Origin: Cognatishimia activa
GTDB lineage: Bacteria; Pseudomonadota; Alphaproteobacteria; Rhodobacterales; Rhodobacteraceae
Reading direction: 5' to 3'
Length of the DNA stretch: 64,000 bases
Assembly (NCBI RefSeq): GCF_026016445.1
Contig: NZ_CP096147.1
Span: 1,772,501 to 1,836,500, forward strand
A program made the position numbers and the translations under genes. Every line of letters begins with the position of its first letter. Within the stretch, counting starts at the first letter, position 1. This document shows, one piece after another, positions 28,102 through 50,446 of this stretch. The notes under the pieces are model-generated. The model saw nothing but the letters and a program-made list of their open reading frames with translations, made no database searches and had not been told where the DNA came from.

Positions 28102-28155
28102 GAGACTGGCGAACTTCGCCAAAACACAACATGAATATATGTATGGGAGGAAAAC

Positions 28156-29157: not shown

Positions 29158-29170
29158 GGACGCATTGACG

Positions 29171-29665: not shown

Positions 29666-29671
29666 TTGATC

Positions 29672-31573: not shown

Positions 31574-31897
31574 TCAAACTTGGCGTTCAGGTAATCGCAA
31601 TACCAAACCTTCCATATCCACCGTCACCTTCAATTGACATGTCAACCGAGATAAGCGTTCGTTTGGCTCATACGCGAACTCTAACATGTCCTCTTCTACG
31701 TCGCCTTTTGTCACAAGCTTGTCCACCCAGGCGTCATCGACATAAACATGACAGGTCGAGCATGCGCAGGCACCACCACAATCGGCTTCAATGCCAGCTA
31801 TGTTATTGTCTCGCGCGCCCTCCATTACTGAAGATCCAACAGGAATATCAACAGTTCTAGCCTGTCCTTCAAAACTAAAAAACGTGACTTTGACCAT
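31574..31897 (-). CDS. [2Fe-2S] ferredoxin, adrenodoxin type
   Basis: A 107-residue ferredoxin. Cys40, Cys46, Cys49 and Cys87 give the adrenodoxin/putidaredoxin spacing C-x5-C-x2-C-x37-C (ADCGGACACSTCHVYV and RLTCQLKV). It carries electrons from an FAD reductase, likely the one at 45163, to an oxygenase, likely the Rieske protein at 35782. It is the last gene of the minus-strand operon, six bases after the carboxymuconolactone-decarboxylase-family gene. Confidence 0.9.
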   Translation of the reverse strand: MVKVTFFSFEGQARTVDIPVGSSVMEGARDNNIAGIEADCGGACACSTCHVYVDDAWVDKLVTKGDVEEDMLEFAYEPNERLSRLTCQLKVTVDMEGLVLRLPERQV

Positions 31898-31903
31898 ACA
31901 TTC

Positions 31904-32296
31904 TTACTCCAGCAGGCCGCGCTCGGTGAGCACCTTGCGTGCCACGCGGAAACATTCCAAGGATTGTGGAACGCCGCAGTAGATGCCAATTACGTGGATG
32001 ATCGACTGAATTTCTTCCTTGGTGACGCCATTGTTCAAAGCACCTTTGCAGTGAACTTCCCACTCGTGCATTTTGCCCAGTGCGCCGATCATCGCGAGGT
32101 TCATCATTGAACGCGTCTTGTGATCGATAGTGTCGTCACCCCAGCCAAAACCCCAGCACCAGGCGGTCATTGCTTCCTGGAATGGGCGCGTGAAATTATC
32201 CGCCGCGGCGAGATTCTTTTCGACATATTCCGCGCCCAAAGTGGATTTGCGCTGCTCCAGGCCCTTCAGGAACAGGTCTTCGTCAAACTGACTCAT
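31904..32296 (-). CDS. Carboxymuconolactone-decarboxylase-family protein
   Basis: A 130-residue protein of the CMD/AhpD-like fold: AWCWGFGWGDDTIDHKTRSMMNLAMIGALGKMHEWEVHCKGALNNGVTKEEI. The pattern is that of PcaC-like CMD proteins, not of AhpD: no CxxC motif is present. The aromatic lactone substrate of PcaC has no obvious partner here, so the true reaction is unknown. The start MSQFDED follows ACGGAGA; the longer upstream frame would cross the terminator at 32310-32349. Confidence 0.8.
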   Translation of the reverse strand: MSQFDEDLFLKGLEQRKSTLGAEYVEKNLAAADNFTRPFQEAMTAWCWGFGWGDDTIDHKTRSMMNLAMIGALGKMHEWEVHCKGALNNGVTKEEIQSIIHVIGIYCGVPQSLECFRVARKVLTERGLLE

Positions 32297-32309
32297 GGTT
32301 TCTCCGTTT

Positions 32310-32349
32310 AAAAAAGGGGCGGTCCCGGAGCCTCCTCCAAGACCGCCCC
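32310..32349 (-). terminator. Rho-independent terminator between the BCCT transporter and the CMD/ferredoxin genes
   Basis: On the minus strand GGGGCGGTC and GACCGCCCC are perfect 9-bp arms with a 16-nt loop, followed by six T. It sits inside the operon, so the last two genes depend on readthrough or on their own promoter. Confidence 0.8.
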
Positions 32350-32363
32350 GTTGCATCTGCAGA

Positions 32364-34211
32364 TTATTCTGCGGGTTCTTGTGTTGCGATCTTGGACGCC
32401 GTGCTAGGCACGCCAACCTTTTCACGCTGACCATCGCGCCAGATGGCCTTGAGCACTGCGAATGCCATCAGCACCATGACCAGCGAGAATGGCAATGCGC
32501 CAATCACCATTGCCGTCTGGATTGCTGACAGGCCGCCCACGATCAACAAGGCACCAACAACAAGCGCCAGAGCTGCACCCCAGAACAGGATGTGCGGACG
32601 GGCCTTGGGGCCTTCGTCGCCGCCTGCGTTGATGGTGTTGATGATCAGAACAGCCGAGTCCGCCGAGGTGACCAAGTAGGTCAACAGCAGCACTACAACC
32701 ATTACAGACATAATCCATGACATATTGTCGGACAGCAGCACCGCAAGGGTCGCAAACAGCTGATCTGACGTGCCTGCGGCCGCGATCGACGCCTCACCCT
32801 GCAGGGTCAGATCAATAGCTGTGCCACCCACAATGGCGAACCAGACAAAACACATGATCGACGGGATGATCATCGCACCCAGTACGTATTCACGCACGGT
32901 ACGGCCACGCGAAATGCGCGCCAAGAACACGCCCACAAAGGGAGCAAAGGCAATCCACCACGCCCAGTAAAAGATCGTCCAGGCACCCTGCCAACCAGAC
33001 AGGCGGCTTTCAGTACCAACCTCGTAAGCAGCAGCAATATCTTCCGCGGACAGGCCAGCAGCTGCAGCAGGCAGCCCATCGGTAAAGCTTTGCAGCGTAC
33101 CCCATGGGCTTGTTGCGGCGCCGTGGATGGCAGAAATCTCTTCAGCTGACAGTGCCTGAACCGCAGCAGGAGCCGAAGCGGTAAAGCTGTCCAGTGGCGT
33201 AGAAGACCAGACCGCTAAGATTGTGCTAGGGATCGAGACGAGATAGTCGAATATCCCGACAAACAAAGCCTGCAGGCCAAACATCGTCGAGCCAAAGATA
33301 ACAAAGAACGCCAGCAGCAGGAAACTAAGAACCATGTTCAGGTTGGACAGCCACTTGATGCCTTTGCCTACGCCAGACAACGCCGACAAGGTTGACGCGC
33401 CCATGATCACGGCTAGCGCAACCAAAATACCGGCCATGCTGGCTTTGACGGTGCCTTCTGCGTCAGTAGTCTGCAACCAGTCACCGAGCCCGATCCGTGA
33501 CAGGCCGGCGATGAACTGTTCAACTCCGAAGCCCAGCGTCTGGGACACGCCCAGCACAGTGGCAACAACGGCGACGATGTCGACGATGTGACCCAGCGGG
33601 CCGGACAGCGCCTTGCCAAAGATTGGAACCAAGCCAGACCGGATGGTCAACGGCAGATCGCGACGGAAGGCAAAATACGCCAGCGATAAACCGACGATGG
33701 CATAGCTTGCCCAGGCAGCAAGCCCCCAGTGGGTGAAGGACCACACATAGGCAGATCGCACGTTATTCAGCGCCGATGGGTCTGTCACACCAGTGATGGT
33801 GTCCGGGTTTACGCCAAAGTGATACATTGGCTCCGCGGTCGCAAAGGTCAGCATCCCAATGCCGATCCCTGCCCCAAACATCATCGAGAACCAGGAAAAG
33901 CTCGAAAACTCGGGCTTGTCATCCTCATGGCCCAGTTTCAACCGCCCGGCCGCAGGCCATAGCGCCAGCCCAATACAGACGATCACATAGAAGGCCATCA
34001 CATAGACGTACCAGAAGTTGAACGAGGTCAGGATCGCTGAGTTCAGATTAGACAGAACCGCACCCGCCTGTGAAGGAAAGGCAACTGACCAGATGATCAG
34101 AGCACCGACGACGATTTTGGCGGTGATGGCCACGTCTTTGGTAAAACCTCGATAAAAGCCGCTCTCTGCGGTCTTAATCGGCAGATCTGTTAGCGGTGGT
34201 TGGATTGACAT
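32364..34211 (-). CDS. BCCT-family betaine/choline/carnitine transporter
   Basis: A 615-residue transporter with 12 core helices. The Gly-rich helix FGAGIGIGMLTFATAEPMYHFG and the aromatic segment WTIFYWAWWIAFAPFVGVFLARISRGRTVREYVLG are BCCT hallmarks; the second holds the Trp residues of the substrate box. Between about residues 340 and 395 there is an inserted hydrophilic loop. A Met rather than Asp follows GIGIG, the pattern associated with Na+-coupled members (inference). It should import the quaternary-amine substrate for the Rieske system encoded in the same operon. Confidence 0.9.
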   Translation of the reverse strand: MSIQPPLTDLPIKTAESGFYRGFTKDVAITAKIVVGALIIWSVAFPSQAGAVLSNLNSAILTSFNFWYVYVMAFYVIVCIGLALWPAAGRLKLGHEDDKPEFSSFSWFSMMFGAGIGIGMLTFATAEPMYHFGVNPDTITGVTDPSALNNVRSAYVWSFTHWGLAAWASYAIVGLSLAYFAFRRDLPLTIRSGLVPIFGKALSGPLGHIVDIVAVVATVLGVSQTLGFGVEQFIAGLSRIGLGDWLQTTDAEGTVKASMAGILVALAVIMGASTLSALSGVGKGIKWLSNLNMVLSFLLLAFFVIFGSTMFGLQALFVGIFDYLVSIPSTILAVWSSTPLDSFTASAPAAVQALSAEEISAIHGAATSPWGTLQSFTDGLPAAAAGLSAEDIAAAYEVGTESRLSGWQGAWTIFYWAWWIAFAPFVGVFLARISRGRTVREYVLGAMIIPSIMCFVWFAIVGGTAIDLTLQGEASIAAAGTSDQLFATLAVLLSDNMSWIMSVMVVVLLLTYLVTSADSAVLIINTINAGGDEGPKARPHILFWGAALALVVGALLIVGGLSAIQTAMVIGALPFSLVMVLMAFAVLKAIWRDGQREKVGVPSTASKIATQEPAE

Positions 34212-34248
34212 AGTCTCTCTCCCTCTCCTTTTTTGCGTTTACTTCGAT

Positions 34249-35703
34249 TCAGCCGCGCAACCGAATGGCAACATTCTTGGTTTGCACGTAGTTCCAGAGC
34301 GCCTCGCGCCCCTTCTCCCGGCCGTAGCCAGATTTTCCGTAACCGCCGAAGGGAGTTTCAACCCCTCCGGCGTACCACTCATTGACAAAAACCTGACCCG
34401 CACGGATTTCGCGTGCAGCTTTGGTCGCTCGGTCAATGTCACTGGTAAAAACACCACCGACGAGACCGTAGGGCGTCCCATTTGCAATCTGGATTGCTTC
34501 TGCATCATCCTTGAATTTCAGAACGGACAGGACTGGTGCGAATGCTTCCTCATTGGCAATCGTCATGCCTGGTGTCACTCCGGTCAAAAGAGTTGGTTCA
34601 AGGAAGGCACCAGGGATGTTCATCTTTCGCCCACCCGTTGCCGCCGTTGCTCCGACGGAAATCGCCTCCGACACCATGCCGGCAGCGCGGTCACGCTGTG
34701 CCTCGCTGACCATCGCTCCCATGTTTGCGCCAAACTCACCGAAGTCGATGCCCGGGCCAACATTCAGGTTTTTGGCCGTATCAACAATACGTTCCACCAA
34801 TTCATCGTGGCGGCTTTCATGAACAATCACACGGCTCATGGCGGAACAGACTTGTCCCGCGTTGAAATAAATGCCCCAACGCACGTCGTTGGCAAAAGCT
34901 TCCAAGTCTGCGTCATCATGCACGATAGCCGCAGATTTTCCTCCCAGTTCCAATACGCATGGAACAATATTGCGTGCTGCGGCTGTGGCGATTGCAACTC
35001 CAGTTGGGACGGAACCTGTGAAGACAATTTGGTTCACATGAGGATGGGCAGACAAAGCAGCACCTGCCTCATGACCCAGACCACAAAGGATGTTTACAGC
35101 TCCTGAAGGCAAGCCAACCACTTCGGCTGCTTGAGCAAACCAGGCGTTTGTCAGAGGTGTCAATTCTGGGGTTTTGATAACAACCGTATTGCCAGTTGCC
35201 AGCGCCGCAGAAAGCGAACGCGCGGTCATTTCCATCGGATAGTTCCAAGGAATGATCTGTGCCGAAACGCCATAGGGCTCGTAGGTGGTGAAGTCGAAAT
35301 AGTTTGAACCCAGCGGGATCGAACGACCTTCTACTGTTTCAGCTTGATTACCGTAGTATTCAAAATACCGAGCAGCCGCTTCGACTTCCATCCGGGCTTC
35401 CCAAAGGGGTTTGCCCTGCTCTCTGGTTAGCACCGGCGCGATTTCGTCGATCTTTTCGAGCAGGAAATGACCCATACGCTGCACCATGCGGCCACGCTCG
35501 ACAGGGCGCAGATCGCTGAGTGCACCAGATAGATGAACCCGTCGCGCTGCCATGACAGCACGATTTACGTCGTCTGCATCAGCGAGCGCCTGTTCAGCCA
35601 GTTTTTGGCCGGTTCCCGGATCAATAACGTCGATACGCCCCGCGCCGCCGTTAACCCATTGGCCGTCGATATAATTCTGCCAGTAAGGCTTCACTTCATG
35701 CAT
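34249..35703 (-). CDS. NAD(P)-dependent aldehyde dehydrogenase
   Basis: A 484-residue ALDH. PWNYPMEMTARSLSAALATGNTVVIKTPELTPL is the nucleotide site, FTGSVPTG the Rossmann Gly motif, LELGGKSAAIV holds the general base Glu, FNAGQVCSAMSRV the catalytic Cys, and EEAFAPVLSVLKF, then GGYGKSGYGREKG the C-terminal motifs. It is close to betaine-aldehyde-type dehydrogenases. It probably oxidises an aldehyde (or formaldehyde adduct) formed during breakdown of the imported compound. GGAGG precedes ATG 35703, which decides the start. Confidence 0.88.
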   Translation of the reverse strand: MHEVKPYWQNYIDGQWVNGGAGRIDVIDPGTGQKLAEQALADADDVNRAVMAARRVHLSGALSDLRPVERGRMVQRMGHFLLEKIDEIAPVLTREQGKPLWEARMEVEAAARYFEYYGNQAETVEGRSIPLGSNYFDFTTYEPYGVSAQIIPWNYPMEMTARSLSAALATGNTVVIKTPELTPLTNAWFAQAAEVVGLPSGAVNILCGLGHEAGAALSAHPHVNQIVFTGSVPTGVAIATAAARNIVPCVLELGGKSAAIVHDDADLEAFANDVRWGIYFNAGQVCSAMSRVIVHESRHDELVERIVDTAKNLNVGPGIDFGEFGANMGAMVSEAQRDRAAGMVSEAISVGATAATGGRKMNIPGAFLEPTLLTGVTPGMTIANEEAFAPVLSVLKFKDDAEAIQIANGTPYGLVGGVFTSDIDRATKAAREIRAGQVFVNEWYAGGVETPFGGYGKSGYGREKGREALWNYVQTKNVAIRLRG

Positions 35704-35781
35704 GATATCCTCCAACCCTTTGACGAGGCGCTATCTGCACCGCGCCAAATTCAGTGTTTCTTCTGTAAGAATGTGACGGGC

Positions 35782-36891
35782 TTATTCTGTTGACTTGGGC
35801 GCGCAATCGACCGCTTCTCGTATCCACTGATGCAGTTTGGCGACTGAGTGTTCACTCATAACACCACAGGAAGGGTCAAGAACCAGCGGACCCGGGCGGA
35901 AGCCTTTGGATCTCAAGCCGCGGTTCACAGACTCGACCAGTCGGATATCCTCCTCTACCGTGGTTTCCCGATCCTGAATCGCCAACTTGCGAATTACGTC
36001 GCTTTCGTGACCACCTTCGGTAAACCAGCCCCGCCATACGGTGCATTTATCAACGGCATTTGCGCGCCAGTGGTATGTATTAAGCACATTGCCTGGATAG
36101 CACTGGAATGAGAAAGCTGGCCACAGGAACCAAGATTGGTAGTCCCCAGCATGAGGCACGGACATATCAATTGGATAGGTCATGTTTTCCAGTGCTTGGC
36201 ACTCGGTCACATGCCGGAGAACATAACCACCATTGATGTCAGGCTGGATATCGTAGGTTTCCGGCTTGATGACTCCCGTTGAAAAGGTAGAATGGTTGGA
36301 CGGGCAGTGATAGCACTCGGAGTAATTCTCAACCGAAAGCTTCCAGTTGCAATCTTCTGGAATCTCAACCCATTCTAGTGGGGCCAATTCATTCACGTGT
36401 GGCACAAATTCTCGAATTTCTTCGCGCACACCAGGGTACCATTCATCCATCGGAGCTGCGTCATTATCGAGATTAACGAATATAAACCCCAGGAAATCTT
36501 CTGTGCGAACCTCGGTCAGGCAAATTTTTTCGCGGTCAAAACCAGGCACTTTTTTTAGGTTTGGACCCGCACGCAAACCACCCGTCAGTTCATATGACCA
36601 CTGGTGGTATGGGCACACCACGACGCGCGTATTGCCGGTACCCGTAACCATTTCATGAGCGCGATGCTGACACACATTATAGAATGTGCGGATAACGTTA
36701 TCGCGACCGCGGATAGCAAAAAGGTTTTGCCCTGCGATCTCGAAGGCGAAATAGTCACCGACATTCGGAATGTCGTTGGTATGTCCAGCAAATTGCCAAG
36801 TGCGGGACAGCAAACCTTCCATCTCATTTTCGAAGATATCGGGATCCGTATAGTATCTTGGCTCTAGTGTGTGCGTGAGCGGTGCGTTCAA
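35782..36891 (-). CDS. Rieske non-heme iron oxygenase alpha subunit (GbcA/CntA-like)
   Basis: A 369-residue oxygenase. The Rieske centre is CQH (Cys74, His76) and CPYH (Cys93, His96). The bridging and mononuclear iron site is in NWKLSVENYSECYHCPSNH. Members with this layout hydroxylate an N-methyl group of quaternary amines (glycine betaine, proline betaine, carnitine), releasing formaldehyde or splitting C-N. The start is TTG at 36891, overlapping the RpiR stop by four bases, with AGGAGG eight bases upstream. Electrons should come from the ferredoxin (31574) and FAD reductase (45163). The exact amine is not fixed by sequence. Confidence 0.87.
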   Translation of the reverse strand: MNAPLTHTLEPRYYTDPDIFENEMEGLLSRTWQFAGHTNDIPNVGDYFAFEIAGQNLFAIRGRDNVIRTFYNVCQHRAHEMVTGTGNTRVVVCPYHQWSYELTGGLRAGPNLKKVPGFDREKICLTEVRTEDFLGFIFVNLDNDAAPMDEWYPGVREEIREFVPHVNELAPLEWVEIPEDCNWKLSVENYSECYHCPSNHSTFSTGVIKPETYDIQPDINGGYVLRHVTECQALENMTYPIDMSVPHAGDYQSWFLWPAFSFQCYPGNVLNTYHWRANAVDKCTVWRGWFTEGGHESDVIRKLAIQDRETTVEEDIRLVESVNRGLRSKGFRPGPLVLDPSCGVMSEHSVAKLHQWIREAVDCAPKSTE

Positions 36892-37775
36892 TTCTGATCC
36901 TCCTGATACAGTCCAAGCTGATGGCGACGATTGTGATATTTTTCGACCCTGCCGACGACTTCCTCAGAAGAGTGCGCGACGACAAAACTCAGCAGAGTTT
37001 CAAGCAGTGCGATCGTTGCGGCGGACGATGGGAAAAATTGAGGGGTTTCCGTGGACACCAGAAACCCGTGATCTGCAGCCCGAATGATCGGTGACGCGGG
37101 TGAATCTGAAAGGGCGACAATTTTGATGCCCTGCTCCTTTGCGAACTGAACAGCCTGCACAACCTCGGTTCGGTAAGGTGAGCAGGTAATCGCGATCAAC
37201 ACGTCCTGCTCATCCGCCCATGCAAGATCATCTACGCTGGTCGACCCCGGGCGCGGAATTGTGTGGAAATCGGTCATTCCGGTTGAGGCGAGGTACGTGA
37301 AATTATGCGCGTTGGCATGATTCACGCCGACGCCCAAAGTGTAGACTTTGCGTGAATTCCAGATGGCTTCGGCCGCCGCCTGCAACTGTTCTTCACTGGT
37401 CGAGGCAAAGGTCTTTTCGATGTTCTTCAAGGCGCGCTCTGCCATGTCGGCAAAAAGCTCGCCCATCGCACCGCCCTTTTGGATGCCTTGCAGCCAGCGT
37501 GCGCGGTCCGAAAACGAGGCTTCACCGGATCGAATTGCATCGCGGAATTGCTCGCGGAAATCGTCAAACCCATCAAATCCGGCCTGACGGGCCATACGTA
37601 CCATTGTGTTGGGTTTTACATCTGCGGCCTCTGCAACCTCTCGCACAGTAGAGAACCCGATATCCTCGGGATGTTCCATGACATAGCGCGCGGCCTTGCG
37701 CACTTGTGGTGTCATCTCATCCAACCCTTGAGACAGGGCATTTAATGCTGCGTTTGGTACAGTTGTATAATTCAA
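36888..37775 (-). CDS. MurR/RpiR-family transcriptional regulator
   Basis: A regulator of about 295 residues with an N-terminal RpiR HTH (LSQGLDEMTPQVRKAARYVMEHPEDIGFSTVREVAEAADVKPNTMVRMARQAGFDGF) and a C-terminal SIS domain (about 130-270: VYTLGVGVNHANAHNF and DVLIAITCSPYRTEVVQAVQFAKEQGIKIVALSDSPASPI). The SIS domain usually binds a phosphosugar or other small effector. The start is uncertain: TTG at 37775 keeps a normal-length N-terminus; an ATG at MTPQ would remove part of it. It is cotranscribed with the Rieske gene (TTGA overlap) and divergent from the demethylase operon. Confidence 0.8.
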   Translation of the reverse strand: MNYTTVPNAALNALSQGLDEMTPQVRKAARYVMEHPEDIGFSTVREVAEAADVKPNTMVRMARQAGFDGFDDFREQFRDAIRSGEASFSDRARWLQGIQKGGAMGELFADMAERALKNIEKTFASTSEEQLQAAAEAIWNSRKVYTLGVGVNHANAHNFTYLASTGMTDFHTIPRPGSTSVDDLAWADEQDVLIAITCSPYRTEVVQAVQFAKEQGIKIVALSDSPASPIIRAADHGFLVSTETPQFFPSSAATIALLETLLSFVVAHSSEEVVGRVEKYHNRRHQLGLYQEDQN

Positions 37776-37828
37776 TTTTCCATCCGAACGTACGTTTGTG
37801 TCATTTCGTGTTGACTTGGGTACAACTG
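37756..37828. promoter_or_regulatory. Repeated GGTACA[A/G][C/T]TG motif in the divergent promoter region
   Basis: GGTACAGTTGTA (37756-37767, containing palindrome TACA-GT-TGTA) and GGTACAACTG (37819-37828) lie between the RpiR and demethylase genes. The second is just after a TTGACT hexamer (37811). They are candidate RpiR sites controlling both operons; the first would overlap the first RpiR codons if TTG 37775 is the start. Confidence 0.35.
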
Positions 37829-37878
37829 AACCATTACCAAGTCCACTGAAAACTTCGACTCGAACAGGAAAATTTGCG

Positions 37879-40356: not shown

Positions 40357-41492
40357 GCGCCGTTCCAAGCACCATGAAAGCTATGCTCCTGACGGGGCAT
40401 GGTGGCTTGGACAGGTTGGTTTACAGCGACGTCGAAACACCCCGGCCTGAAAAGGGCGAGGTTCTGATCAAAGTTGGGGCCTGCGGCCTCAACAACACCG
40501 ATATCAACACCCGCACCGCTTGGTACTCCAAAGCCAATGACACGGCTTTGGGCGAAGGCGCGAAAGAGGGATTTGCCGAAACCGATGATGCTGACAGCAC
40601 ATGGGGTGCGGGTGCAATCACCTTCCCGCGCATTCAGGGCGCAGACGCAGTTGGCGAAATCGTTGCCGTCGGCGCTGGCGTCTCTGATGCCCGCATCGGA
40701 GAGCGCGTGATGGTGGACCCATGGCTCCTGGGTCATGGAGATTGGCAAAACCCCGTAAACTCGGGCTATTTCGGTTCTGAATGCGATGGCGGCTTTGCGC
40801 AGTTCACCAAGGTGCGCGAGGCCAGTGCGATCAAGGTCACATCGGAACTTTCCGATGTTGAGCTGGCCACATTTGCCTGTGCTTATACAACAGCTGAAAA
40901 TCTCGTTCAGCGAACTGCGCCCCGTCCCGGAGAGACCGTCGTCATCACCGGTGCGTCTGGCGGCGTGGGGTCTGCCGCAATTCAGCTGTGCCGCCTGCGC
41001 GGTTGCAAGGTGATTGCTGTCGCAAGCGTATCCAAAGCGGATGTGTTGCTGGACCTTGGCGCTGCGCATGTCATTGAACGCAGCACAGAAAATTTGGAAG
41101 CAGAAATCCGACACGTTGCAGGTGGACCTGTTGATATTGCCTTGGATGTCGTAGGTGGCGATCGGTTCATGCCTCTGATCAATGCGCTACGACAGGGCGG
41201 GCGATATTCGACCTCAGGCTGCATCGGCGGGCAATTTGCCCAGTTCGATCTGCGCCAATTGGTTTACAAGGATCTACAACTTACCGGAGCCACAATCTGC
41301 CCGCCGGGTACGATGCACCGTGTGGTTGGAATGATCGAAACCGGCGTCCTGAAGCCGCTTTTAGCAGCAATCTACAAATTGGAAGACCTGGCGGAAGCAC
41401 AAGAAGCCTTCATCCGTAAATCGCATCTTGGCAACATCGTGGTGACGCCATGTGATACGTCCGTCGGGACCCACGAAGGAACCCCTACATGA
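40353..41492 (+). CDS. MDR-superfamily alcohol dehydrogenase/quinone oxidoreductase-like
   Basis: A 379-residue medium-chain reductase. The catalytic domain has GLNNTDINTRTAWY in place of the usual zinc-ligand GxxxTD, and a long insert before IQGADAVGEIVAVG. The NAD(P) domain has VVITGASGGVGSAAIQLCRLRG and the C-terminus is IYKLEDLAEAQEAF. The structural-zinc Cys cluster of classical ADHs is absent, so it resembles quinone oxidoreductase/crotonyl-reductase members. The start overlaps the demethylase stop (ATGA). The substrate is unknown; an oxidation or reduction in the same pathway is inferred. Confidence 0.8.
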   Translation: MSAVPSTMKAMLLTGHGGLDRLVYSDVETPRPEKGEVLIKVGACGLNNTDINTRTAWYSKANDTALGEGAKEGFAETDDADSTWGAGAITFPRIQGADAVGEIVAVGAGVSDARIGERVMVDPWLLGHGDWQNPVNSGYFGSECDGGFAQFTKVREASAIKVTSELSDVELATFACAYTTAENLVQRTAPRPGETVVITGASGGVGSAAIQLCRLRGCKVIAVASVSKADVLLDLGAAHVIERSTENLEAEIRHVAGGPVDIALDVVGGDRFMPLINALRQGGRYSTSGCIGGQFAQFDLRQLVYKDLQLTGATICPPGTMHRVVGMIETGVLKPLLAAIYKLEDLAEAQEAFIRKSHLGNIVVTPCDTSVGTHEGTPT

Positions 41493-42604
41493 AGATCATT
41501 CGCATCATGGTCTATCAATTGGATATGCCTTTATCGGAACCCTACTACCTCTCTGGAGGTCGCCTGAAGTTCGAGAAACTCGACAGCACCTTTGTGCGCA
41601 TCGACACTGATGCAGGCATCTCCGGTTGGGGCGAAGGGTGTCCATGGGGGCACACCTATCTGCCCGCGCACGGTCCCGGTATCCGCGCCGGGATCGAAAC
41701 ATTGGCCCCATTCCTCATTGGAGAAGATCCGCGCAGCCTTAATCACATCAACCGTGTGATGGATGTGCAGCTGCCGGGTCATCCATATGTAAAATCTCCC
41801 ATCGACATGGCCTGTTGGGATATTCTTGGGCAAGCGTCCGGCATGCCGCTGTGGCAACTGATGGGTGGCCATGAAGCCGCGGCTGTTTTGGTCAATTCTT
41901 CCATTTCAACGGGCTCACCAGAGGAAATGATCGCGCGGATCGAAAAGGCCGCAGCCAAAGGTTACACGGTGCATTCCGCCAAGGTTGGCGGCACCGATAT
42001 CGGATTAGATATTGCGCGAATAGATGCCATATCGGCGGCGCTTCCTGAGGGCCACAAAGTCACGTTTGACGTAAACCGCGCTTGGCAACCGGCTGTGGCG
42101 ATCGAGGTTCTTAACAGCACTTCGGCCCGCGATTGGGTCGAGCAACCCTGTGAAACACTGGACCAATGCGCCCATGTCGCGACCCGGGTTTCAAACCCGA
42201 TCATGCTGGATGAGTGTATGCACACGTTCTCGGATCACCTCGAGGCGTGGAAGCGTGGTGCCTGTGAAGGTGTGAAGGTCAAGCCAAACCGCGTTGGTGG
42301 CCTGACCAAGGCGCTGCAAATCCGTGATTTCGGCGTATCTGTGGGCTGGCAGATGCACATTGAGGATCTCGGTGGTTCTGCTTTGGCGGATACTGCAGCC
42401 ATCCACCTGGCGGCGTCGACACCGGAGGCCAACCGCCTCGCCAGCTGGCTGTGCCACTACCACCTATCAGTTGATCCGGTCCCGGGCCAAGGTGCGCGAA
42501 ATGATCAAGGCGTGGCGGTTCCACCCAGCTTGTCAGGGCTGGGCGTGGCGCCGGACCCTGATCAATTTGGACCAGCAGTCGCAACGTACGAAACACGCGC
42601 TTGA
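41489..42604 (+). CDS. Enolase-superfamily (mandelate racemase/muconate lactonizing) enzyme 1
   Basis: A 371-residue MR/MLE-family enzyme. The capping domain (about 1-125) precedes a TIM barrel. Metal ligands are Asp in FDVNRAW, Glu in VEQPCET and Glu/Asp in MLDECMH. A Lys follows strand 2 (HSAKVGGTD) and another strand 6 (GVKVKPNRVGG). The two-Lys arrangement is that of hydroxyproline-betaine 2-epimerase and cis-3-hydroxyproline dehydratase-type enzymes. It abstracts the alpha proton of a carboxylate; racemisation or dehydration of an amino or hydroxy acid is expected. ATGA overlap with the upstream gene. Confidence 0.82.
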   Translation: MKIIRIMVYQLDMPLSEPYYLSGGRLKFEKLDSTFVRIDTDAGISGWGEGCPWGHTYLPAHGPGIRAGIETLAPFLIGEDPRSLNHINRVMDVQLPGHPYVKSPIDMACWDILGQASGMPLWQLMGGHEAAAVLVNSSISTGSPEEMIARIEKAAAKGYTVHSAKVGGTDIGLDIARIDAISAALPEGHKVTFDVNRAWQPAVAIEVLNSTSARDWVEQPCETLDQCAHVATRVSNPIMLDECMHTFSDHLEAWKRGACEGVKVKPNRVGGLTKALQIRDFGVSVGWQMHIEDLGGSALADTAAIHLAASTPEANRLASWLCHYHLSVDPVPGQGARNDQGVAVPPSLSGLGVAPDPDQFGPAVATYETRA

Positions 42605-42631
42605 AAGAGAAAAAACAAGGGAGGTCACGCA

Positions 42632-43735
42632 ATGAAAATCACACGTATCACCGCTTGGGAGGTTCCGTTGACCTCCCATGAAACCTACTACATGGCGGAC
42701 GGCAAAACCTGCGACACCACGCTTTCTGTCATTTTGCGGCTCGACACGGACACAGGCTTGTCCGGCTGGGGCGAAGTTTGCCCCATCCCGCACTATCTGC
42801 CTGCTTATGCAAAAGGCGTGATCCCGGCACTGGAAGAGATGGCGCCAGTTCTGATCAGTGCGGACCCAGTGGGGCCAGAAGCGCTGATGGAGCGGCTGAA
42901 CAAACACCTCATCGGTCATGACTACGCGAAATCAGCCGTTGATACCGCGCTGTGGGATCTGACCGCTCAAGCTACTCAATTGCCACTCTATGCACTGCTT
43001 GGCGGACGGGCGGTGCAGGACATGCCGCTTTATCATTCCATCACCTGCGTCGCTCCAGACGAGATGGCCCGCATGGCGCGTGATGCTCAGGATCAAGGCA
43101 TGACCCAATTCCAGGTGAAGCTTGGCGCAGACAAAAACTGGGAAGCCGACGTGGCGCGCCTGACATTGGTGCGTGAGGAAGTTGGTCAAGGACCACTGGT
43201 TTATGGTGATTGGAATTGCGGGTCGGACGCGCTGACAGCGACGCGTGTTGGGCGCGCGGTGGCTCATCTGGATGTGATGCTGGAGCAGCCCTGTGCCACC
43301 ATTGAAGAATGCGCTCATGTACGCGCCGCTACCGGATTGCCCATGAAACTGGATGAAAGCGCGCGGGATGTCCCTTCCCTGCTCGCTGGTCACCGCGCGG
43401 GGTGCATGGACGCAGCCGCACTGAAGCTTTCCAAAATGGGCGGGCTTTCCAATATGCGCCGGACACGAGATCTTTGCCTGACGCTCGGCACTCAGATGTG
43501 CATCGAAGACACCTGGGGCAGCGACATCACCACGGCCGCAGTGCTGCATCTGGCTGCAGCGACGCCGGAACGGGGCATTATGAACACCTGCGACCTATCA
43601 CATTATGTTGGCCCGCGCCTCGATCCGGGGGTGCCGACAAGAGACAACGGGCGCATCGCGCCACCTGACGGCATCGGTCTTGGCATCACACCTGACCTCG
43701 ACACGCTGGGTCAGGCCCAAGCCATTATTGAATAA
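42632..43735 (+). CDS. Enolase-superfamily (mandelate racemase/muconate lactonizing) enzyme 2
   Basis: A 367-residue second MR/MLE enzyme, only distantly similar to the one before it. Barrel residues are Lys in FQVKLGADKNW, Asp in YGDWNCG, Glu in LEQPCAT, Asp in KLDESARD and Lys in ALKLSKMGGL, then CIEDTWGSDI. This layout is very like that of HpbD, the 4-hydroxyproline-betaine 2-epimerase of Pelagibaca bermudensis as I recall its sequence. It may set the stereochemistry of a betaine-type substrate. GGGAGG precedes the ATG. Two such enzymes in one operon suggest a substrate with two stereocentres or a racemase followed by a dehydratase. Confidence 0.82.
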   Translation: MKITRITAWEVPLTSHETYYMADGKTCDTTLSVILRLDTDTGLSGWGEVCPIPHYLPAYAKGVIPALEEMAPVLISADPVGPEALMERLNKHLIGHDYAKSAVDTALWDLTAQATQLPLYALLGGRAVQDMPLYHSITCVAPDEMARMARDAQDQGMTQFQVKLGADKNWEADVARLTLVREEVGQGPLVYGDWNCGSDALTATRVGRAVAHLDVMLEQPCATIEECAHVRAATGLPMKLDESARDVPSLLAGHRAGCMDAAALKLSKMGGLSNMRRTRDLCLTLGTQMCIEDTWGSDITTAAVLHLAAATPERGIMNTCDLSHYVGPRLDPGVPTRDNGRIAPPDGIGLGITPDLDTLGQAQAIIE

Positions 43736-43761
43736 CCATCTAGAACTATAGGGAAAAACCC

Positions 43762-45123
43762 ATGGACGACCTCTCAAACGCCTTCCCCTCCCATGATCCG
43801 GAATGGGTACAGGAGATGCACGCAAACCACTATCTACAGAGTTGGTCCAAGCAAGGCGGCAAGCCGAGGGTCATCACCGGGGCCAGCGGGTCTTGGTTCT
43901 GGGACAGCGATGGTAAACGCTATCTCGATTTCCAATCTCAACTGGTGAACGCGAACCTTGGTCACCAGCATCCGAAGATTGTGCAGGCCATCAAAGATCA
44001 GGCGGACAAACTCTGTTACATCGGCCCGGCCATGGGGTCTGACGTTCGTTCTGAACTGGCAGCGTTAATGAACGAAATTACACCTGCCAATATTTCATCG
44101 ACCTTCTTCACGACTGGCGGCTCTGCGGCGAATGAGACAGCCATCCGACTGGCGCGCCACTTCACAGGTCGCAATAAAATCATTGCGCGGTATCGGTCCT
44201 ATCACGGCGCTACAGGAGGCACCTTGTCCTTGACGGGTGATCCGCGTCACCATCTGACCCGCGCCGATATGCCTGGGATCGTGCGGATGCTTGATCCTTA
44301 TCTTTATCGCTTGCCGACAGGCCACACGGACCCTGCAAAATGTCCGGTCGCACAGGGTGGCCCGCATCTGGAAGAACTCTTGATGTATGAAAATCCGAAT
44401 ACGGTTGCGGCAGTCATTCTGGAGCCAATCGTTGGGACTAATGGAATTCTGGTGCCGCCAGATGGCTACCTGCAATCCATCAAGGAAACCTGCGAGAAAT
44501 ATGGCATCCTTCTGATCGCTGACGAGGTTATGGCGGGCTTTGGCCGGACCGGCGAATGGTTCGCCGTTGATCATTGGGGCGTTCAGCCAGACATCATTAC
44601 GTCCGCCAAAGGCATCAACTCGGGCTACGTACCACTGGGAACAATGTCGGTCAGCACCGAGTTGCATGACTGGTTGCGCAATACGCCATTGCCTGGTGGT
44701 TTGACCTATGCAGGTCACCCACTGGCGTGCGCCTCGGGCGTGGCTGCCATCCTCGCAATGCAGGAAGAAGGCACCCTAGCCCATGCAACCGCCATGGGTG
44801 AGAAAATGCGCGCAGAACTGCACAAACTAGCCGAAAAACACCCGTCCATTGGCGACATTCGCGGAAAAGGCATGTTCAACGGTATCGAGCTCGTGAAAAA
44901 TCGAGAGACTCGCGAACCATTGGTACCGTTTGCAGCAAAGGGCGACGCAGCCAAGCCAATGAACGAGATGATGAGCTTTGCGATGAAGAATGGCCTTTAC
45001 CTGTCTTTCTACTCCAACGTTATCCGTCTGACGCCACCGCTCAACATCTCGGAAGAAGACATGATGACCGGCCTCGAAATTCTCGACCGCACATTGGGCA
45101 TCGCTGACAAGGAATGCGCCTAA
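43762..45123 (+). CDS. Class III (omega) aminotransferase, PLP-dependent
   Basis: A 453-residue fold-type I aminotransferase. FTTGGSAANETAIRLARHFTGRNKIIARYRSYHGATGG binds PLP phosphate; LLIADEVMAGFGRTGEWFA holds the Asp that contacts the pyridine N; ITSAKGINSGYVPLG has the Schiff-base Lys. Close families act on terminal amines (beta-alanine, taurine, GABA) with pyruvate or 2-oxoglutarate. Inference: once fully demethylated, the substrate's amine is removed here to yield an aldehyde for the ALDH at 34249 or 52924. A 26-bp gap separates it from enzyme 2. Confidence 0.87.
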   Translation: MDDLSNAFPSHDPEWVQEMHANHYLQSWSKQGGKPRVITGASGSWFWDSDGKRYLDFQSQLVNANLGHQHPKIVQAIKDQADKLCYIGPAMGSDVRSELAALMNEITPANISSTFFTTGGSAANETAIRLARHFTGRNKIIARYRSYHGATGGTLSLTGDPRHHLTRADMPGIVRMLDPYLYRLPTGHTDPAKCPVAQGGPHLEELLMYENPNTVAAVILEPIVGTNGILVPPDGYLQSIKETCEKYGILLIADEVMAGFGRTGEWFAVDHWGVQPDIITSAKGINSGYVPLGTMSVSTELHDWLRNTPLPGGLTYAGHPLACASGVAAILAMQEEGTLAHATAMGEKMRAELHKLAEKHPSIGDIRGKGMFNGIELVKNRETREPLVPFAAKGDAAKPMNEMMSFAMKNGLYLSFYSNVIRLTPPLNISEEDMMTGLEILDRTLGIADKECA

Positions 45124-45132
45124 GGGCGCATT
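45113..45132 (+). other. Intercistronic hairpin
   Basis: AATGCGCC and GGCGCATT are perfect 8-bp arms around TAAG; the stop codon of the aminotransferase is in the loop. There is no T-run, so it may stabilise or separate mRNA segments before the reductase gene. Confidence 0.45.
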
Positions 45133-45162
45133 TCCAACCTTGGCTTTTAAAAGGTTATACAA

Positions 45163-46377
45163 ATGACGGAAACTGGTGTCGTTATCGTAGGCGCAGGACA
45201 AGCTGGCTGCTCCGCAGCGGTCAAGCTGCGAAATCTGGGATATGACAAACCAATCACACTGATTGGTGAAGAACCCCATCCACCCTATCAACGCCCACCG
45301 CTGTCCAAGGCATACCTATTGGGTGAAATGTCGCGCGAGCGCCTGTTCTTACGTCCAGAGTCCTACTACGCAGAACACAACATCTCCCTGCGCCTCGGCG
45401 CAGAAGTTTCCGAGCTTTCCGCCAAAGACCGCACCCTGGTCTGCGGCGGGGAAACACTGAGCTTTGAGCATGTGATCCTCACTACTGGTTCCACACCACG
45501 GCGCCTACCAGAAGCCATTGGTGGCACACTTTCCGGCACGCATACTATCCGCGGGATCTCTGACATTGACGCCATTGCCCCAGAATTCGATTCAGGCCGC
45601 CGTCTGGTCATCATTGGCGGTGGCTACATTGGTTTGGAAGTGGCCGCCGTAGCGGCGAAGCTTGAGCTTGAAGTTACGCTGATCGAAGCCGCCCCCCGCA
45701 TCTTACAGCGGGTTGCGGCACCTGAAACTGCTGATTTCTTCCGGGATCTGCATCAGTCCAAAGGCGTACGTATTCTGGAAAACACGCAGCTAGCGCGTGT
45801 TACAGGAACGGAAAAGGTAGAAGGTGTTGAACTCGCAAATGGCGAAGAGATCCCAGCTGATTTTGTGGTCTTCGGCATCGGGATCACGCCAAACACTAAG
45901 CTGGCAGAACAAGCGGGTCTTGAGGTGCTGAATGGTATTGTCACTGACAACAAGGGCCGCACATCTGATCCACGAATCTGGGCCGCAGGCGACTGTGCCA
46001 CCTTGCCTTTTAAAGGCACTCAAATTCGTCTCGAAAGCGTCGGAAACGCCATCAATCAGGCCGAAATTATTGCCGCCAATATTGCAGGTACTGAAACTGT
46101 CTATGAGCCAAAACCCTGGTTCTGGTCGGACCAGTACGACGTAAAGCTGCAGATCGCGGGGCTGAACGCAGGCTATGACCAGACCATATCCCGCGAGGGT
46201 ACCAATGGTGTGCTGTCAATTTGGTATTACCGAGACAACGCCCTGATCGCTGTCGACGCCATGAATGATCCGCGAACCTACATGGTCGCGAAACGATTGA
46301 TTGAAAGTGGCAAATCTCCGACTCCCGAAGTGATCCGCAACCCAGAGACCGACCTCAAGGCGTTGCTGAAGGCGTAA
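45163..46377 (+). CDS. FAD-dependent ferredoxin reductase (BphA4/putidaredoxin-reductase type)
   Basis: A 404-residue flavoprotein. GVVIVGAGQAGCSAAVKLRNLGY is the FAD motif, PYQRPPLSKAYLLGE a hallmark of the family, VIIGGGYIGLEVAAVAAKL the NAD(P)H motif, and WAAGDCATLPF the second FAD motif. It passes electrons from NAD(P)H to a [2Fe-2S] ferredoxin. No other Rieske or P450 gene is in the window, so it should serve the ferredoxin at 31574 and the oxygenase at 35782. It is encoded on the other side of the divergent promoter. Confidence 0.88.
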   Translation: MTETGVVIVGAGQAGCSAAVKLRNLGYDKPITLIGEEPHPPYQRPPLSKAYLLGEMSRERLFLRPESYYAEHNISLRLGAEVSELSAKDRTLVCGGETLSFEHVILTTGSTPRRLPEAIGGTLSGTHTIRGISDIDAIAPEFDSGRRLVIIGGGYIGLEVAAVAAKLELEVTLIEAAPRILQRVAAPETADFFRDLHQSKGVRILENTQLARVTGTEKVEGVELANGEEIPADFVVFGIGITPNTKLAEQAGLEVLNGIVTDNKGRTSDPRIWAAGDCATLPFKGTQIRLESVGNAINQAEIIAANIAGTETVYEPKPWFWSDQYDVKLQIAGLNAGYDQTISREGTNGVLSIWYYRDNALIAVDAMNDPRTYMVAKRLIESGKSPTPEVIRNPETDLKALLKA

Positions 46378-46402
46378 GGCAGAACAGAGGAAGCGTGAAG
46401 AG

Positions 46403-47437
46403 ATGTATTTGGCCCCAAATTCCAAGGCAACCTTCGGCGGCGAAAATGTTTCGATCGCGGCTAAAGCATGCCTAAAACGCCACTTCCGCTTTCTCCTTTT
46501 GCCCGGTGCCAATATGCTGGACTTTTCCGCGGCAATTGAACCGCTGCGCATTGTGAATTCGCTGCGCGCTGCACCAGAATATACTTGGTCTATCGTATCT
46601 GAAAACGGGCAGCCGATAACACTTTCAAATGGGATTTCATTACCCGTTGACGGCGCTCTGCTTGATACCGACGCTGCGGATGTTGTCGTCGTTTGTTCTG
46701 GCGAAGCTGGCTTTCTGGACGCTGATCCCAAAACGTTGCAGTGGCTGCGCAAGCATGCTCGATTTGGAGGGGCGGTTGCAGCTTTAGCCACCGGCGCGTT
46801 TACACTGGCTCGAGCCGGGCTTGCAAAAAGTGCAAAGTTGACACTGCATTGGGCGCAAATCCCGGTCTTTGAAGAAATCTTCCCGGATTTGGAATGCATG
46901 AGCTACCGGTCTGTTTCCGAAGGGACATTGTCCTATTGCGCAGGCGGAAGCGCGTGTCTCGACCTGACGCTTCAAGTGATTCAGGAAGACTTCGACCACG
47001 CAACGGCGCAACGCGTCGCGGAATTCTGTTTGCACGATTTTGATTGTGACGTCAGCCGAACTCAAAGGATTACGATTGCAAAACGGGTCGGCGGCCGACA
47101 TCCAGCCATCACCAACATTGTTCAGAAAATGGAAGAGTCCATACATACAGCCCCTCTGCTGGAGGATCTTATCGGAGGCGAGAATATATCTCGTCGACAG
47201 GTTGAGCGTCTATTCAAACGATACCTTGGAACCACGCCGTCGCAGTACTTTCGAAACTTAAGACTTGATCGTGCTCGCTGTCTTTTGCTGGGCACGGATA
47301 TGTCGATCATGGAAGTGGCCATCGCAACTGGGTTTTCCGGATATACTAGCTTTTCGAAACTTTATCGAAAGCGTTTTGGTGAACGCCCCTCCTCAGACCG
47401 CGGAGGCAAAATAAGCGGTAACGGAATGGCGCTTTAG
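46403..47437 (+). CDS. GlxA-type AraC regulator (DJ-1/PfpI domain plus AraC HTH)
   Basis: A 344-residue regulator. Residues about 30-195 form a DJ-1/PfpI-like domain (RFLLLPGANMLDFSAAIEPLRIVNSL, GGAVAALATGAFTLARAG, with no nucleophilic Cys at the usual place). Residues about 235-330 are the AraC HTH (LEDLIGGENISRRQVERLFKRYLGTTPSQYFRNLRLDRARCLLL, then VAIATGFSGYTSFSKLYRKRFG). Relatives GbdR, CdhR and SouR control glycine-betaine, carnitine and sarcosine use, which fits this locus. It ends the plus-strand operon. Confidence 0.87.
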   Translation: MYLAPNSKATFGGENVSIAAKACLKRHFRFLLLPGANMLDFSAAIEPLRIVNSLRAAPEYTWSIVSENGQPITLSNGISLPVDGALLDTDAADVVVVCSGEAGFLDADPKTLQWLRKHARFGGAVAALATGAFTLARAGLAKSAKLTLHWAQIPVFEEIFPDLECMSYRSVSEGTLSYCAGGSACLDLTLQVIQEDFDHATAQRVAEFCLHDFDCDVSRTQRITIAKRVGGRHPAITNIVQKMEESIHTAPLLEDLIGGENISRRQVERLFKRYLGTTPSQYFRNLRLDRARCLLLGTDMSIMEVAIATGFSGYTSFSKLYRKRFGERPSSDRGGKISGNGMAL

Positions 47438-47456: not shown

Positions 47457-48350
47457 TTAGAGCTCTCGCTGCGTTTCGTTCATTATCCAGTCCCAGAAGG
47501 CCTGAACTCTTGGCTGGCGTTTTCGGTGTGACACAGCGCTCAGGAAATAACGAGGCGCTGGCGGCAAAGAATCTGAAGGGAGTTCAAATGGAATACACAG
47601 TCGCCCTTCAGCCAACATTCGGTCGGCATTTGCGCGGTTACCCAAGGCAACGCCGATACCACGCGCTGCAGCTTCAAATGCATGCAATGAATAACTGACA
47701 GAGAAGAACCGTTGATGCTTAAGCCAGCTCCGTCCTGCCAGAATTTTCTTCCAAGAGGTCAGTCGCCTTTCTGTTTCAATCAATGTCGCACCATTGAGAT
47801 CTTCCAGAGACGTGATGTCTTTCATGGCGACATAACTTGCGCTGGCAAGCGGGACCAGTTCATCAGGCAAAAACTGTACAGAGACAAGATCGGGGTCGGG
47901 CTCAAACCGGTATTCTATAGCGATATCGATACTGCGTTCATCAGGATTGAAGGTCATCCGATCCAGAAGACGAATGTCGTATTCTGGAAACTGCTCAGAA
48001 AAACCTATGAGCTTGGGCATCAGCCACATCGTGGTCAGCGTAGGGGGCGCCGCAATTGTCAGAACTTCGCGCTGGGATTCCTGGGTGGCAACAGACGTCG
48101 CGCGTCCAATCGCTTCCAAACTGGGGCGCACTTCAGTCAGGTAATCCCGCGCCCTGTCTGTCAGCACGAGATTCCGGCCTCTGCGAATAAAAAGTGGGGC
48201 ACCCAGAAAGCCCTCGAGCTTATCAAGTTGGTGACTGACCGCTGGTGGAGTGACATTCAATTCAGCCGCAGCCGCGCGAACGCCCCCAAGCCGGGCCACC
48301 GTCTCAAAAACATGCAGGGCATGCAGCGGGGGAAGTTTGTGAATCGCCAT
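47457..48350 (-). CDS. LysR-family regulator (GcvA-like) of the C5-diacid operon
   Basis: A 297-residue LysR regulator of the GcvA group. The HTH is LPPLHALHVFETVARLGGVRAAAAELNVTPPAVSHQLDKLEGFLGAPLFIRR. The effector domain starts near residue 92 (EVLTIAAPPTLTTMWLMPKL). It is divergent from the CoA-transferase operon with 101 bp between start codons, in the same arrangement as RipR/ItcR-type regulators of itaconate genes. It is convergent with the GlxA-type gene. Confidence 0.85.
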   Translation of the reverse strand: MAIHKLPPLHALHVFETVARLGGVRAAAAELNVTPPAVSHQLDKLEGFLGAPLFIRRGRNLVLTDRARDYLTEVRPSLEAIGRATSVATQESQREVLTIAAPPTLTTMWLMPKLIGFSEQFPEYDIRLLDRMTFNPDERSIDIAIEYRFEPDPDLVSVQFLPDELVPLASASYVAMKDITSLEDLNGATLIETERRLTSWKKILAGRSWLKHQRFFSVSYSLHAFEAAARGIGVALGNRANADRMLAEGRLCIPFELPSDSLPPAPRYFLSAVSHRKRQPRVQAFWDWIMNETQREL

Positions 48351-48388
48351 TCTGTAAGAAAATATTTAACAGAAATCACAAAATCAAT

Positions 48389-48405
48389 AAATTTTCTTTC
48401 AATTT
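48389..48405. promoter_or_regulatory. Candidate LysR box
   Basis: AAATT-N7-AATTT is an inverted repeat in the divergent lysR/CoA-transferase intergenic region, fitting the T-N11-A rule. Low base complexity limits confidence. Confidence 0.4.
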
Positions 48406-48451
48406 GCACCGCAGTAACCTGTGGCAAACAGCACCATGCATAGGTATCTAG

Positions 48452-49579: not shown

Positions 49580-49602
49580 ATTAAGCAGAAGGATCAATTC
49601 CG

Positions 49603-50436: not shown

Positions 50437-50446
50437 GATCAGATCA

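Follow-up and report, generated by a model that had tools for sequence, protein, structure and literature searches.

What compound is degraded by the divergent gene cluster at positions 31574 to 47437 of the stretch of Cognatishimia activa DNA presented here? This stretch (hereafter the window) covers 64,000 nucleotides of a genome that consists of one 3.21-Mb contig. The minus-strand row of the cluster encodes, in order, an RpiR regulator, a Rieske oxygenase, an aldehyde dehydrogenase (ALDH) and a BCCT importer and then, beyond a terminator (32349-32316), a carboxymuconolactone decarboxylase (CMD) family protein and a ferredoxin. The plus-strand row encodes a dimethylglycine dehydrogenase (DMGDH)-like enzyme, a medium-chain dehydrogenase/reductase (MDR), two enzymes of the mandelate racemase/muconate lactonizing enzyme (MR/MLE) family (MR1 and MR2), a class III aminotransferase, a ferredoxin reductase and a GlxA regulator (Table 1). 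The original prediction, made from the DNA letters, had listed these two rows and proposed that the Rieske oxygenase and the DMGDH-like enzyme strip the N-methyl groups from a chiral betaine, leaving an amine that is transaminated and oxidized. Every gene it named was present. Its picture of quaternary-amine catabolism leading from a chiral betaine to a transaminated amine was upheld, but methyl stripping by the Rieske oxygenase, as stated there, was not. We regard it as fairly probable that the cluster serves the catabolism of a betaine (a quaternary-ammonium carboxylate) with a chiral carbon beside the carboxylate; a substrate of this kind that ends as a transaminable amine fits best. Betaines are nitrogen-containing compounds associated with salt stress. 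Beyond the original prediction, the gene set proved to be widespread and often to contain dddQ; the presence of an MDR gene beside dddQ is already in print (PMC3338564, like the other papers cited here available to us in excerpt).

The nearest solved structure to the Rieske oxygenase was the carnitine monooxygenase CntA (PDB 6y8j), matched over the full length at 235.8 bits, with the next different protein at 140; identity to Acinetobacter baumannii CntA was 29.5%. According to the excerpt of PMC7948474, group V Rieske enzymes fall into two subgroups: in group Va (CntA and the choline and benzalkonium oxygenases) position 203 is aromatic, and in the demethylating group Vb (GbcA, Stc2) it is Asn. 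A Cys pair (Cys-x-x-Cys beside the iron) is described in some group V enzymes (PMC10952381, excerpt). The window protein has the Rieske and catalytic domains, the bridging Glu and the Cys pair, with CntA E205, C206, C209 and Y203 matched by Glu192, Cys193, Cys196 and Tyr190. The ECYHC motif was kept in 80 of 80 related Rieske sequences and Y.ECYHC in 79, the remaining sequence having His in place of Tyr. This places the window enzyme in group Va and not in group Vb, whereas a Rieske protein of Sinorhizobium meliloti pSymB, included as a contrast sequence, has Asn at position 203. Within the CntA substrate pocket Y225 is retained (Y213), but F258, N270, Y315 and F319 are replaced by Y251, Q263, D307 and T311 in both alignments, and these four residues are invariant in an alignment of 20 Rieske proteins. 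CntA Y295 is matched to W286 by only one of the two alignments, so this position is unsure. The full carnitine pocket of CntA is therefore absent. The window system also differs from CntA in its reductase, which is of the ferredoxin--NAD+ type with a separate ferredoxin. Group V and Va residues combined with four pocket changes indicate that this protein very likely oxidizes a quaternary-ammonium compound that is not carnitine. A 16-row Rieske tree had long branches and served residue comparison alone. Grouping with aromatic-ring dioxygenases, which the original prediction had named as the outcome that would count against it, was not seen in match scores or residues; the ring dioxygenases among the matches listed aligned with the N-terminal half only, whereas CntA matched over the full length, and this class was rejected.

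To what extent is the set conserved? We scanned genome contigs with a profile of the 20 aligned Rieske proteins and took the top 80 among 576 confirmed stretches as loci, with Rieske identities of 66-86%. They were mostly from Rhodobacterales, with some from Hyphomicrobiales and other Alphaproteobacteria (Mesorhizobium, Labrenzia, Hoeflea, Kiloniellaceae) and single records named Halieaceae and Oceanobacillus; the closest named relatives of the window Rieske protein were Rhodobacterales. A close DMGDH-like gene lay divergent to the Rieske gene and directly upstream of it in 70 of the 80 loci, which argues against a chance assembly of the core. In eight of the other ten the contig broke off no more than 2.4 kb from the Rieske gene. 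The last two (L075 and L081) were true exceptions, in which the sole DMGDH-like gene was a distant one (25%) located farther on. Because open reading frame (ORF) picking was greedy, counts of the other members are approximate: RpiR in 66, CMD in 56, ALDH in 34 and BCCT in 3 of the 80. Among the 58 loci holding both DMGDH and aminotransferase genes we counted MDR in 47, CMD in 41, ALDH in 22, BCCT in 2 and the ferredoxin reductase in 3, with no MR/MLE gene in 1, one in 16, two in 16 and three in 25. Three loci whose aminotransferase side was cut off (L028, L065 and L082) had four MR/MLE genes each. MR2 was present in most related clusters, and the CMD protein was 78-94% identical in relatives. 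The ferredoxin beside CMD had no match in the 80 loci, even at 1e-3, and no transporter common to all loci was found. In a survey of 390 Rhodobacterales genomes, an orthologous Rieske gene (at least 62% identity, the next identities falling to 38%) was detected in 75, including the source genome, although G138, the other surveyed genome of the genus, was without it. The set, most likely one for betaine breakdown, is thus real and widely conserved, and the occurrence of its Rieske gene in about one in five surveyed genomes suggests that it probably feeds on a common compound. In the relatives L028 (11085-17745) and L007 (11096-13060), GFA, Amdase-like, sulfotransferase-like, FrhB-like and BKACE genes surround those for ALDH and CMD, and ten loci (for example L082 2203-2487) encode a 94-residue Cupin_2 protein amid their MR/MLE genes.

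The DMGDH-like protein has the complete DAO - FAO_M - GCV_T - GCV_T_C domain order, and its best solved relative was dimethylglycine dehydrogenase 4pab (504.6 bits). MR1 and MR2 were nearest to 2qdd (665 bits) and 4mgg (273 bits), structural-genomics entries with molecule names without assigned function, against 140 and 181 bits for 2pmq, which we take to be HpbD. Residues D194, E218 and D241, presumably the metal ligands, and Lys165 and Lys265, which we take to be the lysines on both faces typical of 1,1-proton transfer, were kept in all 142 MR/MLE rows compared. Neither protein reached the cis-3-hydroxyproline dehydratase model (NF043002; 307 and 332 bits, cut-off 500). The ALDH was closest to betaine-aldehyde dehydrogenase models, below their cut-offs, and the MDR is related to MDR proteins encoded beside dddQ-type genes. 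The best solved relative of the aminotransferase was taurine:2-oxoglutarate aminotransferase 6jix (374 bits). At this place the 58 loci carried a HemL-like enzyme in 55 cases and a PRK06062-like enzyme in 3; the HemL-like proteins belong to the same class III family but are distant (25-33%). Two distinct class III subfamilies at one place point to a needed transamination, and conversion of a chiral betaine to a transaminated amine is still the simplest reading. The HemL-like enzymes were also considered as a beta-phenylalanine type, which was not favoured, since glutamate-1-semialdehyde aminomutases scored 324 bits against 165.

A second cluster in the same genome (C1:2443000-2462000, L121) encodes a GcvA-type LysR regulator, a DMGDH-like enzyme, an MttB-family methyltransferase, an LDH2-family dehydrogenase, a DadA-like protein, a BCCT importer, MR/MLE, MDR and MR/MLE enzymes and a GbdR-like regulator. 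The kinds of protein shared by both clusters are 47% (BCCT), 34% (DMGDH), 46% (MDR), 31-37% (MR/MLE) and 37% (GlxA) identical. An MttB-family methyltransferase stands in the place of the Rieske oxygenase, and the DadA-like and LDH2-like proteins stand in place of the aminotransferase and ALDH. From its gene content this looks like a parallel betaine pathway; it may act on a cyclic betaine and the window cluster, in parallel, on an acyclic one. Together with the group V residues of the Rieske oxygenase, its kinship to CntA, the BCCT importer and the DMGDH-like enzyme, this second cluster makes betaine catabolism, as originally predicted, well supported.

From the directly observed gene content, conservation, group Va Rieske residues, retained MR/MLE residues and dddQ linkage in relatives, we propose a pathway in which every reaction, the order of the steps and the substrate are predicted from sequence. 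The BCCT importer would bring the betaine in, and MR1 and MR2 would interconvert its stereoisomers by shifting the alpha-proton. With electrons from the neighbouring ferredoxin and reductase, the Rieske oxygenase would begin the oxidation at the ammonium group, and the DMGDH-like enzyme may then pass the N-methyl groups of a tertiary or secondary amine to tetrahydrofolate. The aminotransferase would remove the primary amine, the ALDH would oxidize the resulting aldehyde, and CMD and MDR may complete breakdown of the carbon skeleton, with RpiR and GlxA as putative regulators. Several observations weigh against this scheme. Published group V demethylases have Asn where the window enzyme has the Tyr of the CntA, choline and benzalkonium oxygenases, and the first reaction may therefore not be a demethylation; it is this residue that leaves the predicted methyl stripping unsupported as stated. 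The ALDH was found in only 34 of the 80 loci, a count subject to the approximate ORF picking, and MR2 was the sole MR/MLE enzyme in 14 loci with DMGDH and aminotransferase genes, which suggests that some steps are dispensable or done elsewhere. The CMD protein is well conserved yet without a clear role, and RpiR proteins usually sense sugar phosphates.

The glycine betaine route through GbcA and dimethylglycine dehydrogenase resembles the cluster in its Rieske and DMGDH-like enzymes and GbdR-like regulator. However, the Rieske protein scored only 155 of the 670 bits of the GbcA model and has the Va rather than the Vb residue, and the window adds MR/MLE, MDR, aminotransferase and CMD genes. A CntA-like reaction is a possible though unlikely alternative: the Rieske oxygenase would oxidize the chain carbon beside the nitrogen and cleave the C-N bond. 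The products would be trimethylamine (or a tertiary amine), to be handled elsewhere or by the DMGDH-like enzyme, and a semialdehyde for the ALDH. The group Va signature residue agrees with such chemistry, as does the adjacency of the Rieske and ALDH genes, which recalls the CntA-like Rieske gene adjoining a succinate-semialdehyde dehydrogenase gene in Burkholderia multivorans. A full-length protein resembling trimethylamine N-oxide demethylase is also encoded in the source genome (G000:C1:2525267-2527525; 1061 bits, slightly below the cut-off of 1100). Such a route would nevertheless leave the conserved aminotransferase and the DMGDH-like gene without an obvious job; it must also accommodate the replacement of F258, N270, Y315 and F319 by Y, Q, D and T, and the MttB-family methyltransferase found at the place of the Rieske gene in the parallel cluster.

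The pathway for hydroxyproline betaine combines the MR/MLE enzyme HpbD with N-demethylating enzymes. A cyclic betaine (of proline, hydroxyproline or pipecolate), with MR/MLE enzymes acting as HpbD-type 2-epimerases and the Rieske oxygenase opening or demethylating the ring amine, was judged improbable. Although 2pmq and the cis-3-hydroxyproline dehydratase model were among the nearest relatives of MR1 and MR2, and two MR1 orthologues carry the automatic name 4-hydroxyproline betaine 2-epimerase, 2pmq was not the nearest relative by match score and the dehydratase scores fell short of the model cut-off. Furthermore, the DadA-like and LDH2-like proteins, of the type acting on ring amino acids, are encoded in the other cluster, whereas the window cluster has an aminotransferase and an ALDH. 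D- or L-carnitine, demethylated to 4-amino-3-hydroxybutyrate, transaminated and oxidized to malate, would account for the BCCT importer, the ALDH and the carnitine monooxygenase as nearest solved Rieske structure. We consider it very unlikely, as four CntA pocket residues are altered and the MR/MLE enzymes act on an alpha-carbon that in carnitine is not chiral.

In relatives this gene set is frequently joined to dddQ, a gene so far studied as encoding an enzyme that makes the climate gas dimethyl sulfide (DMS). DMSP_lyase cupins (PF16867) were encoded between the MDR and MR/MLE genes of many relatives. Of the 80 loci, 34 carried at least one; among the 58 loci with both DMGDH and aminotransferase genes the figure was 29, the other half being without. 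The copy in L010 (Ruegeria lacuscaerulensis) best matched the solved DddQ structures 4la2/5jso (284 bits), and a DddQ-type cupin of L028 matched 5cu1. The window cluster itself has no DddQ, and none was found in the source genome at 1e-10; a weak PF16867 cupin (41 bits) is encoded at G000:C1:1853847-1854146, 17 kb past the window. Searching the 390 genomes with the L010 copy (E at most 1e-10) located DddQ at 60 places in 54 genomes, and for 36 of these places (in 32 genomes) the same contig had an orthologous Rieske gene no more than 15 kb away. Linkage by identity to the query was 17 of 20 at 60% or above, 28 of 36 at 40% or above and 8 of 24 below 40%. Both genes occurred in 40 genomes, DddQ only in 14, the Rieske gene only in 35 and neither in 301; these genomes are mutually related, so a Fisher test on the counts does not give a fair probability, and contig breaks may hide links.

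We viewed 16 of the 24 unlinked DddQ places, in 15 stretches. Three (L089-L091) had the order RpiR-MDR-DddQ-MR-MR-HemL without the demethylases, the Rieske gene lying elsewhere in the same genomes. L099 and L101 retained the MDR neighbour (L099 also CMD), L092 had an ALDH gene nearby, and L097 and L103 had other Rieske-like genes (32-35%). The remaining seven stretches showed no close member of the set nearby; the neighbours viewed there were housekeeping genes (GlnD, MurJ and phenylalanyl-tRNA synthetase among them). Unlinked copies as a separate group of DddQ were rejected, as they intermixed with clustered copies in the tree and shared the same six active-site residues, although the 19-member clade around L010 had no unlinked copy. 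These six positions, taken from the excerpt of PMC4437653, were kept in 55 aligned DddQ proteins save for one Arg at H125.

Excerpts of PMC3338564 describe an MDR gene adjoining dddQ in Ruegeria pomeroyi (SPO1593) and Roseovarius nubinhibens (ISM_14095, beside dddQ1/dddQ2), two loci that we compare by this published description, and state that the R. nubinhibens gene did not correct acrylate sensitivity of Escherichia coli. In the dddQ-type loci that we fetched from relatives, the genes around the DddQ-type cupins include the MR/MLE, Rieske, DMGDH and RpiR genes found in the window. The window cluster differs in having no DddQ or third MR/MLE enzyme, a different aminotransferase subfamily, and its own ferredoxin and reductase. 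Is dimethylsulfoniopropionate (DMSP) then the native substrate of DddQ? Reported mutants lost 97% of DMS production in R. pomeroyi and 20% in R. nubinhibens, and dddQ is induced by DMSP (PMC5395565, excerpt); in a diatom co-culture dddQ (19.2) was among the DMSP genes that were higher by day (15.0 to 41.3; PMC9038784, excerpt). These results argue against a role outside DMSP metabolism, and DddQ clearly can and does cleave DMSP. On the other hand, the excerpt of PMC4437653 gives a response to DMSP of 1-4 fold for dddQ against 40-fold for dddW, and a Km of 22 mM is reported for the R. lacuscaerulensis enzyme, other DMSP lyases also being in the millimolar range (PMC5395565, excerpt). The gene neighbourhood suggests that DMSP cleavage may not be its whole purpose. 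With dddQ so frequent in the set, the weak binding of DMSP becomes a testable lead to another native substrate, N-methylated acids being candidates, and the neighbouring enzymes are a guide to it. If such a substrate is found, dddQ counts in metagenomes will need care as a sign of DMS production. Our search of the open PubMed Central literature found no paper joining DddQ with mandelate racemase, and an earlier description in subscription papers is still possible.

DMSP carries its onium group on C3 of propionate, and DGTA (diacylglycerylhydroxymethyltrimethyl-beta-alanine) is an algal betaine lipid. DddQ linkage, the taurine-type aminotransferase and decarboxylase-like neighbours (CMD, Amdase-like) suggest a more specific substrate, which we put forward as a speculative and rather unlikely proposal: the cluster and its relatives would degrade an alpha-substituted beta-alanine betaine, such as the DGTA head group, with DddQ as the native beta-eliminating lyase and DMSP as a side substrate. 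The MR/MLE enzymes would act on the alpha-carbon, the amine would leave through the taurine/beta-alanine-type aminotransferase, and a malonate-type product may be decarboxylated by CMD or by the Amdase-like protein of some loci. Side activity on DMSP would explain the high Km of DddQ. However, the Amdase-like protein barely reaches its Pfam cut-off, and occurrence of the set in Mesorhizobium does not favour an algal-lipid substrate.

Beyond the GlxA gene lies a module of five genes (Table 1). In Ruegeria sp. R14_0 (the L004 genome; L126) these genes also adjoin the cluster, in unchanged order. The module genes also occur in the L006 genome, there beside another DMGDH-like gene (L127), but a search for the CoA-transferase at 1e-60 gave no match in the genome of L035 or on the L083 plasmid; the module genes are at most candidates for the last steps of the putative pathway. 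The left flank holds a LysR gene (25532-26431), then a sulfatase and a tripartite tricarboxylate transporter (TctC, TctB, TctA; 26542-31177). A Sulfitobacter plasmid copy of the cluster adjoins similar but distantly related genes (TctA 33%, sulfatase 23%).

Table 1. Features of the cluster and the neighbouring module, in window positions.
Feature	Position	Strand	Family and model matches; remarks
[2Fe-2S] ferredoxin, probable electron carrier for the Rieske oxygenase	31574..31897	-	PF00111; GC 0.472, lower
CMD-family protein, PcaC-like, possible decarboxylase	31904..32296	-	PF02627; TIGR02425 115.5 bits (cut-off 155.7)
Intrinsic terminator between BCCT and CMD	32316..32349	-	
BCCT importer	32364..34211	-	PF02028, two matched stretches
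Aldehyde dehydrogenase	34249..35715	-	PF00171; TIGR01804 411.7 bits (cut-off 668.6)
Group V (Va-type) Rieske oxygenase	35782..36891	-	Tyr190, Glu192, Cys193, Cys196
RpiR/SIS regulator	36888..37773	-	PF01418, PF01380; open frame extends to 37937
DMGDH-like FAD/GCV_T enzyme	37879..40356	+	PF01266, PF16350, PF01571, PF08669
MDR dehydrogenase/reductase	40353..41492	+	PF08240, PF00107; solved relative 4j6f
MR/MLE enzyme MR1	41489..42604	+	PF13378, PF02746; 2qdd 665 bits
MR/MLE enzyme MR2	42632..43735	+	4mgg 273 bits
Class III aminotransferase	43762..45123	+	PF00202; PRK06062 548.5 bits (cut-off 472)
Ferredoxin--NAD+ reductase	45163..46377	+	PF07992, PF14759
GlxA/GbdR-like AraC-family regulator	46403..47437	+	PF01965, PF12833; GbdR model 238 bits (cut-off 480)
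Neighbouring module: LysR (-), CoA-transferase III (+), MaoC-like (+), MmgE/PrpD (+), HpcH lyase (+)	47457..52701		

Terminator-like sites in the whole region (23 found, 18.3 expected) were hardly more frequent than by chance, and promoter-like sites (9 found, 9.1 expected) showed no excess. The terminator between the BCCT and CMD genes is a strong one, with a 15-bp stem containing 11 GC pairs, a T6 tract and a folding energy of -35.3 kcal/mol including flanks (z -4.9), so the CMD and ferredoxin genes are not plainly part of the RpiR-Rieske-ALDH-BCCT unit. Starts were corrected to ATG at 37879 for DMGDH and ATG at 32296 for CMD. To judge by orthologue frames of mostly 295-313 amino acids, RpiR probably starts near 37773 (TTG), which leaves about 105 bases up to the DMGDH start for divergent promoters. 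The two matched stretches of the BCCT gene (32364-34211) are separated by about 70-80 residues, as they also are in the BCCT gene of the second cluster (L121 8782-10737).

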